A DNA stretch of 64,000 nt from NCBI GenBank assembly GCA_905612355.1, contig CAJQRU010000019.1:1-64000 (forward strand), given 5' to 3'. Below are positions 20,619-50,275 of this stretch, piece after piece. The notes under the pieces are model-generated. The model was not told where the DNA came from, did no database searches, and was given only the letters and a program-made list of their open reading frames with translations. The stretch's first letter is position 1. Every line of letters starts with the position of its first letter. The DNA is from an uncultured Gammaproteobacteria bacterium. GTDB lineage: Bacteria; Pseudomonadota; Gammaproteobacteria; Arenicellales; UBA868. Both the position numbers and the translations under genes were made by a program.

Positions 20619-21932
20619 TTACCGTTTTCCTTCCGGGATGAGGCCCTGCGGCGCGAATCGAAGCGCTAGTAACAGGACGAGGCCCATGGTCATCAGGCGC
20701 ATATGGGCCGCATTTTCCATTAAATGGTGACGAAGTGCACTGTCGGTGTCCATGCCTGCGGTGATCAGATCCATCAATGCAAGACCGATTGGCTCCGCTT
20801 CGATCCAGAAGAACCAGATAACGAAACCGCCGATTACGGAGCCGAGATTGTTGCCGGATCCGCCTACGATCACCATAACCCAGATGAGAAAAGTAAATCG
20901 TAGTGGTTGGTAAGATGCGGGCGTGAATTGACCATCAAGCGTTGTCAACATGGCGCCGGCTATGCCGATAACGGCGGACCCTAGGACAAACACTTGGAGA
21001 TGTCGCCAAGTGATGTCCTTCCCCATGGCACTGGCGGCGATTTCGTTATCACGAATGGCACGCATCATCCGACCCCAAGGGGATTTTAGCGCGGTCTCGG
21101 ACAACCAAAAGACGACCAGCAGTACGCTAAGGAAGAGTGCCGCATAACTCAATTTTACGACGATAGATGATGCCTCGATCACGGGTATACCGAGTCGTTC
21201 TGCCCACGTCTGAACCCATACCGCACTCTGAAGGTCTATTTCGTAAGGCACTGGTCGTGCTAATCCATTGACATTCTTGACGCCACGCGTGAGCCAATCT
21301 TCGTTTTTTAAGAAATAGATGATGATCTCGGAGATGCCGAGGGTTGCGATGGCGAGGTAATCTGATCGCAACCCGAGCGCGATTTTCCCTACTACCCAGG
21401 CGGCGCCCGCGGCGAAGGCCCCCCCGACTAGCCACGAAAATAAAATAGGAAGGCCAAATCCGCCAAGGAAGCCAGTTTTAGCCGGTTCCACCGCTTCGAT
21501 AGCCGCGATGCCAGGATCGACAGTCACCCGCATGACAGCATAGCCAGCGGCGACTACTGCGCCGGTCAACCAGTAGCGTTTTTTTCCCCAATTTGCTGTT
21601 TTAAGCCAAGTCACTACGGCTATGCCGATCGAAATGCCGCCGAAGCACAGGCCAAGTATCGTGCGGCTCCCGCCTGCTTGCCAAGCCTCCGGCACTGGCG
21701 GCACGGAGACGAGGATTGCGGCGAGGCCTCCAAGCGCTGTAAAACCCATCACGCCGGCGTTGAAGAGGCCGGCATATCCCCATTGGATGTTGACCCCAAG
21801 AGTCATGATGGCTGAAATGAGGCAGAGGTTGAGAATTGTCAACGCAACGTTCCAACTTTGTATCAGACCCACCATGATCAGTAGCATCATCATGATGCTA
21901 AACAACGACAAATGCTTTATTCGTGGGGTCAT
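20619..21932 (-). CDS. livM: branched-chain amino acid ABC transporter permease (LivM type)
   Basis: Polytopic protein; LGISEIIIYFLKNEDWLTRG, GRMMRAIRDNEIAASAMGKD, FLIWVMVIVGGSGNNLGSVIG. Confidence 0.9.
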   Translation of the reverse strand: MTPRIKHLSLFSIMMMLLIMVGLIQSWNVALTILNLCLISAIMTLGVNIQWGYAGLFNAGVMGFTALGGLAAILVSVPPVPEAWQAGGSRTILGLCFGGISIGIAVVTWLKTANWGKKRYWLTGAVVAAGYAVMRVTVDPGIAAIEAVEPAKTGFLGGFGLPILFSWLVGGAFAAGAAWVVGKIALGLRSDYLAIATLGISEIIIYFLKNEDWLTRGVKNVNGLARPVPYEIDLQSAVWVQTWAERLGIPVIEASSIVVKLSYAALFLSVLLVVFWLSETALKSPWGRMMRAIRDNEIAASAMGKDITWRHLQVFVLGSAVIGIAGAMLTTLDGQFTPASYQPLRFTFLIWVMVIVGGSGNNLGSVIGGFVIWFFWIEAEPIGLALMDLITAGMDTDSALRHHLMENAAHMRLMTMGLVLLLALRFAPQGLIPEGKR

Positions 21933-22957
21933 AACGTTCGCCCACTGAATAACCCGGTCGGTTTTATCAGGAGCACAATCACCAGGATCATAAAAGAGAC
22001 GGCAAATTTGTAGTCGGTAGATAGAAGTTGAACAAGTCCGTCGGGTGCAAACCCACTGGGTAGTAGATAGGCCAGTACTTTCTTATATGCAAACGTCACG
22101 AATAATTCAGAAAAAGCAATAACAAACCCTCCTGCAATTGCTCCAAAAGGATTGCCAATTCCGCCTACGATAGCAGAGGCAAAAATCGGTAACAGTAATT
22201 GAAGAAACGTAAATGGCTTATAACTTTTGTCCAAGCCATAGAGTGTTCCCGCGATACATGCCAGGGCGCCAGTGATGATCCAGGTAACCATGACCACACG
22301 TTCCGGGTTAATTCCTGAAAGCAGTGCCAGGTCTTCATTATCGGAATAGGCGCGCATCGATTTTCCGGCTCGAGTCTTATTAAGAAACCAGAACAGAACA
22401 CATACAATGATCACGGCAGTGACAACAGTAATGCTTTGTGAGGTTTTGATGGCAAGACCTTGATCTAAGCCTGTCATTGCCTTGAAGGTTCCAGCCTTCA
22501 AGATGAAACGGGTGCCGTCGTTAAATACCTGATCGTTCGGACCGATGATGAAGCGAATCAGGCCGCCGAGTAAGAACATTAGACCGACGGAAACGATGAG
22601 ATAAGTGACCGGCTGTGTCTTTTCTTGCCGGTAATAACGGTATACCAATCGATCAGTGACCAGGCACAGGCCAATCGTGATTGCAATGCCCACTGGGAGG
22701 GCCAATAGTGCCGTTGGCAGTGGTCCCAGGCTGATGCCCCTTGCTTGCAGCGCCCAGGTTACCAGTATCGTCGCCATCGCCCCGAACGACATAGTTTCAC
22801 CGTGGGCAAAGTTGGAAAACCGCAGTACCCCGTAAACCAGGGTGACGCCAAGTGCGCCCAGTGCCAGTTGACTCCCGTAGGCAAGGCCGGGAACGATGGC
22901 GAAGTTACTCAACAGTGCCAGTACGTTAAGAAAATCTGTCACCTGACTAGCCGCCAA
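21929..22957 (-). CDS. livH: branched-chain amino acid ABC transporter permease (LivH type)
   Basis: VYGVLRFSNFAHGETMSFGA, GKSMRAYSDNEDLALLSGINPERV, FASAIVGGIGNPFGAIAGG. Confidence 0.92.
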   Translation of the reverse strand: MAASQVTDFLNVLALLSNFAIVPGLAYGSQLALGALGVTLVYGVLRFSNFAHGETMSFGAMATILVTWALQARGISLGPLPTALLALPVGIAITIGLCLVTDRLVYRYYRQEKTQPVTYLIVSVGLMFLLGGLIRFIIGPNDQVFNDGTRFILKAGTFKAMTGLDQGLAIKTSQSITVVTAVIIVCVLFWFLNKTRAGKSMRAYSDNEDLALLSGINPERVVMVTWIITGALACIAGTLYGLDKSYKPFTFLQLLLPIFASAIVGGIGNPFGAIAGGFVIAFSELFVTFAYKKVLAYLLPSGFAPDGLVQLLSTDYKFAVSFMILVIVLLIKPTGLFSGRTL

Positions 22958-23651
22958 GAAATGCTTTACGAACGTTTGGGTTTGCCAGTAATGCGCTACC
23001 CGTATCGGTATATCGATTGCTGCCCTGTACCAGAACGTACCCCTTGTCGGCGATGCTAAGCGCTTGTTTGGCGTTTTGTTCTACCATTAGGATAGCAATG
23101 CCTGATCGGGCTATTTCAATAATCCGATCAAACAGTTCGTCCATCACGATGGGCGACACGCCGGCGGTCGGTTCATCCAACATCAAAACCTGGGGTTGGG
23201 TCATCAGTGCGCGGCCTACCGCCACCTGTTGGCGTTGTCCTCCGGAGAGTTCTCCGGCTGCTTGGCTGCGTTTTTCTTTTAGGACAGGAAAGAGGTCAAA
23301 GACCTGGGTTAGGGTATCGGAGAAATCATCCCGCCGAATAAAAGCGCCCATTTCTAGGTTCTCTTGCACTGTGAGCGAGGTAAAGACGTTGTTGTTTTGA
23401 GGAACGAAGCCCATTCCGTAACGTACTCGCTCTTGTGGTTTTAAGTGGGTGATGTCCTTGTCGCCCATCAAAACGCTTCCCTTGCGTAAAGGCAGCATAC
23501 CGAACACCGCTTTCATCGCAGTGGATTTACCAGCGCCGTTTGGGCCCACCACAACCGCGATTTCGCCTTGCTCCACGCCAATGGTGCAGGTGTGAAGGAT
23601 GTCGGAGCCTCCATAGCCTGCGGACATCTCCTTGCCAATTAGAAAACTCAT
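22947..23651 (-). CDS. livF: branched-chain amino acid ABC transporter ATP-binding protein (LivF type)
   Basis: Walker A VGPNGAGKSTAMK, signature LSGGQRQQVAVGRAL, Walker B MLDEPTAG. Confidence 0.93.
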   Translation of the reverse strand: MSFLIGKEMSAGYGGSDILHTCTIGVEQGEIAVVVGPNGAGKSTAMKAVFGMLPLRKGSVLMGDKDITHLKPQERVRYGMGFVPQNNNVFTSLTVQENLEMGAFIRRDDFSDTLTQVFDLFPVLKEKRSQAAGELSGGQRQQVAVGRALMTQPQVLMLDEPTAGVSPIVMDELFDRIIEIARSGIAILMVEQNAKQALSIADKGYVLVQGSNRYTDTGSALLANPNVRKAFLGG

Positions 23652-24427
23652 TGATGTGTGTTACGTGTTTTATGGCCGGCACCAAGATAAGACTCAATAA
23701 CGGAGTTATTGGCCATAACCTCCTGCGCGGAACCCGTCGTCAGCACTCCACCTTCGGCCATGACGATGACCGGATCACACAGCTTGCTGATGAACTCCAT
23801 GTCATGTTCGATCATGCAGAAGGTGTATCCGTGCTCCTGATTGAGTCGCAAGATGGCATCAGCAATTCTGTTGAGGAGCGTTCGGTTGACGCCGGCACCA
23901 ACTTCGTCGAGAAAGACGATCTTGGCTTGCCCCATCATGGCTCGCCCCAGTTCGAGTAGCTTTTTCTGGCCGCCGGAGAGGTTGCCTGCAAATTCGTTAG
24001 CGACTGATGTCAGTTCAAGGAAATCGATGACTTCATCTGCTTGTTGTCGGATAGCCAGTTCTTGATCGTGCACAGTCCTGGGGCGAAGCCACGTATCAAT
24101 GAGTCGTTCTCCCGGCTGGTTTGCAGGGACCATCATGAGATTTTCCTGCACCGTCAGCGTCGCAAATTCGTGGGCAATCTGAAAGGTGCGTAACAGCCCT
24201 TTAGCGAAGAGTTGGTGGGGTTTAAGGCCAGTAATCTCCTCGTTTTCCAAATAGATGTGGCCGGCGGTGGGAGGGTAGACGCCCGCAATCACATTAAACA
24301 GGGTGGTTTTGCCCGCACCATTCGGCCCGATGAGGCCGGTAATGGTGCCTTGCTCAACAGTTAGGGATACATCGTTGACTGCGTGAATGCCCCCAAACTG
24401 TTTGTGGAGGTGTTCGACAACAATCAC
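23648..24427 (-). CDS. livG: branched-chain amino acid ABC transporter ATP-binding protein (LivG type)
   Basis: Walker A IGPNGAGKTTLFNVI, LSGGQKKLLELGRAMM, FLDEVGAGVN. Confidence 0.93.
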   Translation of the reverse strand: MIVVEHLHKQFGGIHAVNDVSLTVEQGTITGLIGPNGAGKTTLFNVIAGVYPPTAGHIYLENEEITGLKPHQLFAKGLLRTFQIAHEFATLTVQENLMMVPANQPGERLIDTWLRPRTVHDQELAIRQQADEVIDFLELTSVANEFAGNLSGGQKKLLELGRAMMGQAKIVFLDEVGAGVNRTLLNRIADAILRLNQEHGYTFCMIEHDMEFISKLCDPVIVMAEGGVLTTGSAQEVMANNSVIESYLGAGHKTRNTHQ

Positions 24428-24445
24428 GGTGGCAACGTCGAAAGC

Positions 24446-24475
24446 GAAACGGCCCGGGAATACCCGGACCGTTTC
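24446..24475 (-). terminator. strong intra-operon hairpin between the binding-protein gene and livG
   Basis: Inverted repeat GAAACGGCCCGGG / CCCGGACCGTTTC (12 of 13 positions paired) with a 4-nt loop in the 58-bp gap between 24427 and 24486. Only a weak T-rich tail on the minus strand. Confidence 0.55.
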
Positions 24476-24485
24476 TTTGGGTGGG

Positions 24486-25682
24486 TTAGCGGAAACGAAC
24501 GGTTGTGTTCTTGCCGCCTTTAACGAGTATTTCTTTATAGTTGCCAGCCGATTCGCCAGCCCCGATTAATTCCACGGCAGAGGCACCAACGTAGTCAACG
24601 TCACCGCCGCCAGCAATGATCTTGAGGGCTTTGCCGAGTTCACCGGGAAAGATTTTCTGGCCCGGTGCGTTAGCAACAGACATGACCTTACCTTTAAACG
24701 CCTGGCTATCGGTTGAATTGGCCGCCTGCATAGCCATGATGATCAACGCCGCAGCGTCGTAGGATTCCGGTGCGAAGGGACCTGACTTAAAGCCCGCTGC
24801 GCTCGCCATTTTTTCAAACGTCGCTGCACCCGGACTATCCGTTCCTGGCACATCACCAATTGATCCATTTAGACCGTCACCAATGGCCGCTGGCAGACTG
24901 TCGCCAATCATGCCATCGGGCAGGTAGAACACGTCAAATGCGCCTGTGTCGAGGGATGCCTGGATGATGCCTTTACCACCTTGATCAAGATAACCCGCTA
25001 CAATCAGAATTTCTCCACCTGCCTGAGCCAATGCCGCGACTTCGGCACCGTAGTCACCTTTGCCGTCTTCATGTGAGACGTTAATCGTGACTTTTCCACC
25101 GACCTTTTTGAAGTTGGTTTCAATACTGTCAGCAAGACCTTTGCCGTAGTCATTGTTGGTGTAAGTGATTGCTGCTGATTTGTAACCTTGATCTTTTAAT
25201 ATGGCCGCGACCACCTGTCCCTGACGAGCGTCTGAGGGGGCCGTCCGGAAAAAGAGCCCGTTATCTGCAACCGTTGAGAGTGCGGGCGATGTGGCAGAGG
25301 GCGAGATCATGACAACGCCATTAGCCATGGCAACATTTTGCAGAATAGCCGTCGTGACGCCTGAACAGTCGGCACCCATAATGGCGTTGACTTTGTCAGA
25401 TGTAATCAGGCGTTCGGCCACAGCCGTTGCCGCCGCAGAATCGATGCAGGTGGAATCACCACGGACCACCTCGATTTTTGATCCGCCCATAAAGGAACCA
25501 CTGTCGTTCACTTCCGAAATCGCCAGTTCAGCCCCTGCCGCCATGGCCGGTGTCAGCGATTCAATGGGCCCGGTAAAACCTAGAATAATTCCGATCTTAA
25601 CGTCATCGGCTACGGCTGGGCCGGTAAGCAGCGTCGCCGCTGCCAAAGCCAGAAATACTTTCCTCATCAGAGTTCTCCTCAA
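24486..25682 (-). CDS. ABC transporter substrate-binding protein (Leu/Ile/Val-binding family)
   Basis: Signal peptide, then DVKIGIILGFTGPIESLTPAMAAGAELAISEVN; type I periplasmic binding fold. Start may be MRKVFLALAAATLL (25667). Confidence 0.93.
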   Translation of the reverse strand: MRRTLMRKVFLALAAATLLTGPAVADDVKIGIILGFTGPIESLTPAMAAGAELAISEVNDSGSFMGGSKIEVVRGDSTCIDSAAATAVAERLITSDKVNAIMGADCSGVTTAILQNVAMANGVVMISPSATSPALSTVADNGLFFRTAPSDARQGQVVAAILKDQGYKSAAITYTNNDYGKGLADSIETNFKKVGGKVTINVSHEDGKGDYGAEVAALAQAGGEILIVAGYLDQGGKGIIQASLDTGAFDVFYLPDGMIGDSLPAAIGDGLNGSIGDVPGTDSPGAATFEKMASAAGFKSGPFAPESYDAAALIIMAMQAANSTDSQAFKGKVMSVANAPGQKIFPGELGKALKIIAGGGDVDYVGASAVELIGAGESAGNYKEILVKGGKNTTVRFR

Positions 25683-25836
25683 AATAGAGTTTGTTCTACC
25701 CTGGCCTTCGGTTCATGTCGGTCAGTTTCGGCCGGGGAGGGGAAAATTATACACAGTGCCCGGTGGATTGGGGTAATTGAGGGGTCTGTTCGGGGCTTCT
25801 CGTGTGGAGTGTTTCGAGGAATGCGTGAAACTGGCG

Positions 25837-25925
25837 ATAGCACATAGCACATAGCACATAGCACATAGCACATAGCACATAGCACATAGCACATAGCACA
25901 TAGCACATAGCACATAGCACATAGC
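25837..25925. repeat. perfect heptanucleotide tandem repeat (ATAGCAC)n, about 12.7 copies
   Basis: Read directly: ATAGCACATAGCAC... uninterrupted over 89 bp, in the intergenic region between divergent genes. Confidence 0.98.
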
Positions 25926-26007
25926 GACAGGAGGCCAGTGTAGCGTCGAACATCCGTGCGCAGAACGGCTCGTTATAATGACGGGTGTTTCATGGCTAGA
26001 GAATGAT

Positions 26008-26877
26008 CGGATGATTGAAAAGCGTCTTTTTGGGCGGACAGGTCACTGGAGCACTGCGACCATATTCGGTGCAGCAGCCCTTAAGAACGTAAGCCAGTCG
26101 GTCGCCGATAGAACCCTGGATGTGTTGCTTGAGTATGGGGTGAATCATATTGATACCGCACCTGCCTACGGCGATTCTGAAAAACGGGTAGGCCGTTGGA
26201 TGCCGGCGCATCGCGACCTGTTCTTTTTAGCAACTAAGACGCGGCAACGAACTTACGCACAGGCTAAGGTTGAATTACATCGCTCGCTTGAGCGGCTGCG
26301 GGTAGATCAGGTAGATCTGATTCAGATGCACGCGTTGTACCATCCTGACGAATGGGATACAGCGATGGCCGACGATGGTGCGTTGCAGGCGCTGATTGAG
26401 GCGCGTGAAGAGGGTCTTGTTCGCTTTATTGGGGTTACTGGACACGGCTGGACGATTGCCGCGATGCATCGCCGTAGTCTCGAACGATTTGGTTTTGATA
26501 GTGTCTTGTTACCGTACACGCCTTCGATGCAGAAAAATGAGCGTTACTCACGTGAGTTTGAATGGTTATTGTCGACCTGTCGTGAACGGGGGGTTGCGGT
26601 TCAGACCATAAAGGCCATTGCTCGGGGTCCTTGGGCTGGAAGGGAAGAGACATACAACACCTGGTACCAGCCGTTAGACCAGCCATGGGAGATTGATCAA
26701 TCGGTTCATTGGGCGCTTGGGAGGAAAGAAATTTTCTTGAACACGGTCGGTGATGTGAATTTATTGCCGCGAGTGCTGGATGCCGCTGCGCGATATGCGA
26801 ATCAGCTGGAGTCTATTGATATAAACGAACTGCAATCTCGTGGCCGTCTTTCCTCTTTATTTGGTATTGGCACATGA
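26008..26877 (+). CDS. aldo/keto reductase family protein
   Basis: [63 protein letters not shown] opens at 25978; likely start [11 protein letters not shown]. Confidence 0.9.
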
Positions 26878-26959
26878 CATTGATCGACCCCACAATGTAT
26901 TTGCTGATCAGTCATCTGTACTTGTGCGATCGGTTGCCCTGAATTGGTATTACACCACT

Positions 26960-27805
26960 ATGACCGACAGCCGTCTTAGGTTTCTTATTGTCGGGGCAGG
27001 ACGCGGGGGCACCAGTTTGTTGATGGGGTTGCTGGACGCGCATTCTCGACTAGAGGTTGGACTCGAACGACACACGGTTGAATGCCTCATGGGGCATGGA
27101 TTGGGGGTTCCCACGGCTGACATTCGGAAGGATCTGGCACAGGTTCGTTCAGCGCAATTTCGTGCGGCGTGTGATAACGATGCGGCGCAACATCCGGCCG
27201 TGGCGTGGGGTAACAAGATCACGACTGAACAGATCTATGGGCTCGAGGATCAGAACTTTGCTAACCCCGGCCAGGTTGATGTGCTGAAGATTTTGTTTGA
27301 AGGGTATCTTTCCGATGTCATTGTTATATTTATTCTGCGTGATGGCAGAACCTGTGTGCGGTCAAAGTTGGCCAGAACCACGCAACAATTAGCGCATGCC
27401 TGCGCGCGGTGGCGGTACTCGGTACAAGTCATGGATTACCTTGAACGTTACCATGCGAATACAGTGACGGTTCGTTATGAGGAGTTGGTTAAAAATCCAC
27501 AGACTGTATTGCGGAATCTTTGCGATGTCTTAGATGTTGAGTTTGAACCCAATATGCTGGTCGGGGTAGCGAATGAGAAGTTACCGGATGAATATCGAAG
27601 TGATCGCATTTCAAAGGCGAGCTTATCCTTCGCGGGTGCGCCGGTGCTGGCGTTTCCGTTGTTGATGGATGAACTGCGTCGTCTCGGGTATATCAGTCCC
27701 GCGCGTTTCTGGATGGGGCGACTCACCTACAGCCGTTGGAGTCCGTTACTGTTCTTGGTGGTAGGCGCTATTGCGGTGATGAGCGTGCAGTCTTTTCTAG
27801 GTTAG
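26960..27805 (+). CDS. sulfotransferase-family protein with C-terminal hydrophobic segment
   Basis: 5'-PSB-loop-like FLIVGAGRGGTSLLMGLLDAHSRLEVGLE and VTVRYEELVKNPQTVLRNLCDVLDVEF. C-terminal LLFLVVGAIAVMSVQSFL. Confidence 0.8.
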   Translation: MTDSRLRFLIVGAGRGGTSLLMGLLDAHSRLEVGLERHTVECLMGHGLGVPTADIRKDLAQVRSAQFRAACDNDAAQHPAVAWGNKITTEQIYGLEDQNFANPGQVDVLKILFEGYLSDVIVIFILRDGRTCVRSKLARTTQQLAHACARWRYSVQVMDYLERYHANTVTVRYEELVKNPQTVLRNLCDVLDVEFEPNMLVGVANEKLPDEYRSDRISKASLSFAGAPVLAFPLLMDELRRLGYISPARFWMGRLTYSRWSPLLFLVVGAIAVMSVQSFLG

Positions 27806-28185
27806 TGATCGACCGGGACAGGAAGTTCTGTGTAGAAACAGCTCTTGAAGCCGTGACCACAGATGGGAAAGTCGGCCGTGGTTTCGAACAATACAGTGTC
27901 ATTGTCGCAATCGACTTTAACTCGACAAATAGCCACGAACTGGCCATCGTCTTCTCCCATGATCCAGACGCGATTTAGCGTCCGTCGATACAAGGTGAGG
28001 ATGCCGGTTTTACAAGAAATTTCCCATGCCTGCTGATTAAGGAATCCCACCATCAAGACTTCGTGGGTATAAGCGTGCTGGAGAACAAAAGGAGCCAGGC
28101 CACCCATCTTGTCAAAATCTAACTCACTTGGTGTGAAGTGGTGGGTGCCTGTTGGCACCGAGTATTGCGGATTGTGATTAGTCAT
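27802..28185 (-). CDS. phosphoribosyl-AMP cyclohydrolase (HisI)-like protein, divergent
   Basis: VDCDNDTVLFETT...ICGHGFKSCFY aligns by eye with the HisI metal-binding region (DCDxD ... C ... SCF). No other his genes are nearby. Confidence 0.75.
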   Translation of the reverse strand: MTNHNPQYSVPTGTHHFTPSELDFDKMGGLAPFVLQHAYTHEVLMVGFLNQQAWEISCKTGILTLYRRTLNRVWIMGEDDGQFVAICRVKVDCDNDTVLFETTADFPICGHGFKSCFYTELPVPVDH

Positions 28186-49588: not shown

Positions 49589-50275
49589 TTGTCTTTTTTA
49601 GTCGCTTGGATAGTGTTTTTTTTTGATACGGACAAGGTCAATTATTGTAATAATCACCATCCTGTTTCCGCAGAGCTATTTATAATGGAGACCCTTTCCG
49701 AACAGGGGGATTACCGTGCCCAGTTCAATCTGGGTTTGATGTACTACAACGGACAAGGTGTTCTGCAGGACGATAAGACTGCCCTGAAGGGGTGCACCCT
49801 TACTGCCGAACAGGGGAGTTACCGTGCTCAATTCAATTTAACACCTCAGTTCGATTTTAACGGCGATGGCCGAATCGATACGGCAGATGGCGTTGTTGTG
49901 GGTGGAAGTACGATTGGTTATGCGGCACGCAAGGTCGAAGGCAAAGGCCTACTTACCGCGCCTTCGGTGAGCGGTAATGTCCATTTCGCACCCAGCAGTG
50001 GCGTAAAAAAGACGGAAGATATGACTAAGACGGCGCTAGTCGATTCTGATGCAAATAATAGCGGTCGCATTTCGTGGGAGGAACTCACTCCGAGGGAAGT
50101 CACCGCACCGACGACTCCTGTGGTCACTACTGACACTGAGACTGCCACTGCCACTGCCACTGCCACTCCTACTACTAAGACTGCCACTCCTAGTACTGAT
50201 ACTGATACTAACACCACCACCCCTACTACTGGCACTGCCGGGCCTCCTCCTGACACTACTTCGGCGAGTGATTAA
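49589..50275 (+). CDS. chimeric protein: Sel1-repeat fragments + EF-hand-like loops + Thr-rich tail
   Basis: LSEQGDYRAQFNLGLMYYNGQGVLQDDKTAL and TAEQGSYRAQFNL (Sel1-like), DFNGDGRIDTADG and DSDANNSGRISWEEL (EF-hand/dockerin-like), low-complexity TATATATPTTKTATPSTDTDTNTTTPTTG. Start uncertain. Confidence 0.6.
   Translation: MSFLVAWIVFFFDTDKVNYCNNHHPVSAELFIMETLSEQGDYRAQFNLGLMYYNGQGVLQDDKTALKGCTLTAEQGSYRAQFNLTPQFDFNGDGRIDTADGVVVGGSTIGYAARKVEGKGLLTAPSVSGNVHFAPSSGVKKTEDMTKTALVDSDANNSGRISWEELTPREVTAPTTPVVTTDTETATATATATPTTKTATPSTDTDTNTTTPTTGTAGPPPDTTSASD

Follow-up and report, generated by a model that had tools for sequence, protein, structure and literature searches.

Position and rarity of the array

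Between two divergently transcribed genes in the window (i.e., the whole 64-kb stretch of DNA analysed here), one heptanucleotide is repeated in tandem without interruption, which raises the question of whether its copy number modulates either gene, as in a contingency locus, or whether the array is a recent product of slippage in DNA under little constraint. The elements concerned are:

24486..25667, minus strand: gene for the substrate-binding protein (Peripla_BP_6) of a branched-chain-amino-acid-type ABC transporter, heading a liv-type transporter gene group
25837..25925: tandem array (ATAGCAC)12.7, or (GTGCTAT)n as seen from the minus strand
26011..26877, plus strand: aldo/keto reductase gene (PF00248), divergent from the transporter gene

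The initial annotation described a perfect, uninterrupted 89-bp repeat of 12.7 copies, and our repeat analysis of the window confirmed it: period 7, 100% matches, neither indels nor mismatches, with the periodicity stopping precisely at 25837 and 25925. Its location between the divergent transporter and reductase genes was also borne out. The distances to these genes needed minor correction, for the reductase (85 bp; previously about 80 bp) and for the substrate-binding protein (169 bp, not 155 bp). Translation of the latter most likely begins at the ATG at 25667, preceded by a GAGGAG ribosome-binding site; the start codon of the reductase is most likely the ATG at 26011, since homologues align from there, and an in-frame ATG at 25978 overlaps its putative -10 box (see below). 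A sulfotransferase gene follows the reductase gene on the plus strand. Both flanking genes are ordinary metabolic ones and neither resembles the usual contingency target.

The array is the longest simple repeat of the window. In a census of 333 kb of the same genome, sampled in stretches (16% of the draft), the runner-up among perfect period-7 runs measures 16 bp and no other heptamer array of at least 2.5 copies occurs; third-order Markov simulations produced no period-7 array of three copies or more. The short runner-up and the empty simulations together rule out a chance origin. Two adjoining copies of ATAGCAC are absent elsewhere in the 2.14-Mb incomplete draft genome (143 contigs; estimated completeness 62%), where the assembled copy number of a perfect array may be inexact. 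A literature search for the repeat sequence gave no match, and a search of the window for known RNAs, riboswitches included, gave no Rfam match. Read on the minus strand, the array contains no stop codon and yields short frames of 66–78 amino acids built from MCYVLCA repeats; a coding array was nevertheless rejected, given the sister genomes that lack it. Hairpin-driven expansion was rejected likewise, neither strand folding better than shuffled sequences.

Predicted promoters relative to the array

The initial annotation proposed that changes in repeat number would alter promoter spacing for one or both genes. On the basis of sequence and conservation, we predicted a -10 box for each gene:

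25746..25751, minus strand: predicted -10 box TATAAT of the substrate-binding protein gene promoter, between this gene and the array and 85 bp from the latter
25974..25979, plus strand: predicted -10 box TATAAT of the aldo/keto reductase gene promoter, between this gene and the array and 48 bp from the latter

The minus-strand box occurs within a run of 17 bases, and the plus-strand box within a run of 21 bases; neither run differs among the four congeneric genomes compared below. A scan of the window for consensus promoters and terminators reported none; both boxes were missed because a fitting -35 is lacking, and no good -35 was found for either. The array would extend from roughly -62 to -150 relative to the predicted transcription start of the reductase (~25987), and from roughly -98 to -186 relative to that of the transporter (~25739). 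As each conserved box stands nearer to its gene than the array does, a change in copy number would affect neither predicted core promoter nor the transcripts, and, given these predicted positions, the repeat is part of no coding frame, leader or core promoter. The proposed change of promoter spacing is, therefore, not upheld. Moreover, the array is dispensable, since two sister genomes keep the genes and the boxes without it.

In the four-genome comparison, intergenic conservation is lowest in the spacers that adjoin the array, where 16 of 25 and 41 of 60 columns are invariant, versus 28 of 30 in the -35/-10 block of the reductase. No evidently conserved operator pair was found flanking the array; two weak inverted repeats that span it are 82% complementary and lie partly in poorly conserved sequence.

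Orthologous sites in related genomes

The divergent transporter/reductase gene pair was found only in four genomes of the genus, one per species: the window genome (named G000), G001 (JAKUQS01, isolate ALOHA), G002 (DUBL01) and G003 (PAWW01, labelled Acidiferrobacteraceae). We found no outgroup with this gene pair; among the family's other genera, the DNA upstream of the transporter gene aligns poorly and the reductase gene is not adjacent. The orthologous sites are as follows:

G000: 12.7 copies
G003: GGCG-ATAGCAC-ATAGCAC-ATAGCAT-ATAGC-GACAGG, i.e., 3.7 units, including one C-to-T variant unit
G002: GGCG-ATCGCACATACC-GACAGG, a 12-base stretch and no array
G001: ACG-AAGGCACATACC-TGCAAG, a 12-base stretch and no array

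The array-less sites thus carry the kind of short seed sequence from which a neutral microsatellite could arise (ATCGCACATACC in G002 and AAGGCACATACC in G001), and the G002 stretch is two bases away from a 1.7-copy seed, ATAGCACATAGC. Repeat number also differs among close relatives, as is typical of a contingency locus (12.7 versus 3.7 copies in tracts of ~99% identity). Tandem ATAGCAC is restricted to one locus each in G000 and G003 and is absent from G001 and G002.

The array is contained in a tract that is nearly identical in G000 and G003:

24400..27900: tract carrying the array, with 98.6–99.8% identity to G003 in every 500-bp bin

Just downstream of it, the identity is about 90–95%. 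The upstream side is patchier, with high identity to G003 again at 21.9–23.4 kb and 94.4% at 23.4–23.9 kb. In other parts of the genome, G000 and G003 are about 93–95% identical (88% in one stretch), and G002 is as close to G000 as G003 is, or closer. These comparisons suggest that the 24.4–27.9 kb locus is a haplotype that was shared or recombined recently. Over 21900–27900, bins with 98.6–100% identity to G003 are broken or bounded by bins with 90–95%, a mosaic which suggests recent homologous recombination between species of the genus.

Between 25,236 and 26,247, a single base substitution and a single 2-bp indel distinguish the two genomes outside the array. The array, therefore, appears to change far faster than its flanks, nine units having been gained or lost while the latter barely altered. 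Nine units amount to 63 bp, or six turns of the helix at 10.5 bp each; such a match may be fortuitous, as one in three differences would keep the helical phase by chance. Two further claims of the initial annotation are supported by these data: recent expansion of the array (12.7 copies against 3.7 within a near-identical tract, and two sister genomes without it) and a slippage-prone, variable copy number (differing between orthologous loci with flanks ~99% identical). Copy number across the four orthologous intergenic regions was 12.7, 3.7, none and none.

Comparison with known systems

In Haemophilus influenzae, hmw1A and hmw2A carry heptanucleotide (ATCTTTC)n promoter repeats in 13–38 copies, varying between strains (PMC8262952, PMC2651432); the hmw1A array overlaps the -10 box of P2 and the -35 box of P1 and enters the leader, more repeats resulting in less adhesin (PMC8262952). 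The ATAGCAC array resembles these in its perfect 7-bp unit, its distance of about 100 bp from the gene downstream and its variable copy number, but it lies outside both predicted core promoters and its neighbours are metabolic genes rather than adhesin genes. By position, the nearest model is nadA of Neisseria meningitidis, where a (TAAA)n repeat upstream of the core promoter separates mapped NadR operators around an IHF site (PMC2791445); a repeat so placed could act only by spacing distal elements, and, unlike in nadA, no operator is known or evidently conserved around the ATAGCAC array. In Helicobacter sabA, a T-tract adjoining the -35 shifts UP-like elements (PMC4081817). Dispersed families of heptamers have also been described, with 169 sets in one Beggiatoaceae genome and 183–186 in two xanthomonads (PMC4679880, PMC4692102). 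The TAACTGA arrays of Beggiatoaceae (PMC4679880) and the G-rich heptamers of Xanthomonas and Nostoc (PMC4692102) are likewise intergenic and include long arrays, whereas ATAGCAC is confined to a single locus and its unit is not G-rich. With an ordinary neutral bacterial microsatellite, the array shares the single non-coding locus, the short seed and a length that differs between close relatives; it is set apart by being unusually long and perfect for the genome sample (12.7 copies versus a next heptamer run of 16 bp).

Origin of the array

Promoter-spacing contingency is unsupported by the anatomy of the locus, and, judging from the sequence comparisons, the array between these divergent genes is most likely a microsatellite that arose recently and is nearly neutral. 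We put the probability that it grew by slippage from a 12-base stretch, and is probably close to neutral, at about 0.72. Two base changes would have converted a stretch like that of G002, ATCGCACATACC, into ATAGCACATAGC, thereby creating a 5-base direct repeat (ATAGC twice, 7 bp apart) at which slipped-strand mispairing could start during replication. Slippage would then have added units, up to 3.7 in G003 and 12.7 in G000, in a gap upstream of both divergent promoters that appears to be weakly constrained. An opposite history, in which G001 and G002 lost an array, is less likely but conceivable, since the locus was found in no more than four genomes and the gene pair in no outgroup. If the array did arise by gain, the series from seed to 3.7 and 12.7 copies across four genomes would constitute a natural record of the birth and growth of a heptanucleotide microsatellite, in a bacterium without known host-adapted pathogen status. 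It also serves as a warning that a long perfect repeat near promoters does not by itself make a contingency locus.

Perfect copies beside two promoters would also fit a selected contingency locus, and a nine-unit difference that keeps the helical phase might do so too. One form this could take is analogous to nadA: an operator or activator site would lie on the far side of the array from the reductase or transporter promoter, and copy number would tune expression by altering the distance and helical phase between site and promoter. The array, at about -150 to -62 of the predicted reductase start, is placed comparably to the nadA repeat (PMC2791445), the hmw1A/hmw2A heptamers are also about 100 bp upstream of their genes (PMC2651432), and copy number does vary among the orthologous loci. 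Such distal spacing is, however, unlikely, given that no evidently conserved operator pair was found around the array (the imperfect, partly poorly conserved inverted repeats being the only candidates that span it), that two sister genomes have no array and that the genes have ordinary metabolic functions. Still less likely is its more elaborate version, in which a new, horizontally shared contingency repeat would tune the liv-type transporter and/or the reductase by distal spacing, with favoured three-unit (21 bp) steps that preserve the helix. Alternatively, transcription could start upstream of or within the array, so that repeats would change the -35/-10 spacing or the 5′ leader as in P2 of hmw1A; the predicted -10 boxes are without a good -35, and the true promoters could be elsewhere. 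Yet perfect TATAAT boxes, at suitable distances and invariant in 4/4 genomes, stand between the array and each gene, the array contains neither of them and the array-less genomes retain both, which makes variation of a core promoter or leader highly improbable.

Perfect tandem arrays are difficult for assemblers, and the copy number, or even the whole array, could stem from a short-read assembler or a strain mixture: the source is a draft assembly in 143 contigs, 62% complete, and there are ambiguous bases near the locus in G003. We nonetheless give an artefact very little credence, as the independent G003 assembly (PAWW01) shows the ATAGCAC unit at the corresponding position and with matching borders, and also has a variant unit; while a wrong copy number is possible, an entirely false array is unlikely. 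Finally, intergenic heptamer repeats are known in bacteria (PMC4692102, PMC4679880), and the array could belong to a dispersed family of the kind seen in cyanobacterial STRRs, Beggiatoaceae (TAACTGA) or Xanthomonas (GGGAATC), or bind a sequence-specific protein. Both of these readings are largely refuted by the confinement of tandem ATAGCAC to one locus in G000 and one in G003, with none in G001 and G002.

Other repeats

A second non-triplet intergenic array in G000, a perfect 11-mer (CTGGCAACGAT)5, occurs between a cinA-like gene and its neighbour (L131:8201-8255, contig C15); G001 and G002 have about one copy at that site. Two unrelated intergenic arrays, each with about one copy in sister genomes, suggest general neutral slippage in non-coding DNA. 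All remaining arrays in the 333-kb sample (at least 22 bp, period 5–21) have unit lengths divisible by three, which fits the expectation for coding DNA.

At 50129–50204 of the window, degenerate ACTGCC-type hexamer repeats lie in an open frame and encode a Thr/Ala-rich stretch, which is probably a linker. A 21-bp unit, its period divisible by three, is repeated at least four times in an open frame on contig C20 of G000 (L135:156-278). Short ATAGCAC runs of 3.7–4.7 copies also occur in three viral contigs (L112:1092-1112, L113:8047-8067 and L114:9228-9248), and are taken as unrelated, independent births; the last of these contigs carries a 66-bp TTGTTGT array as well.
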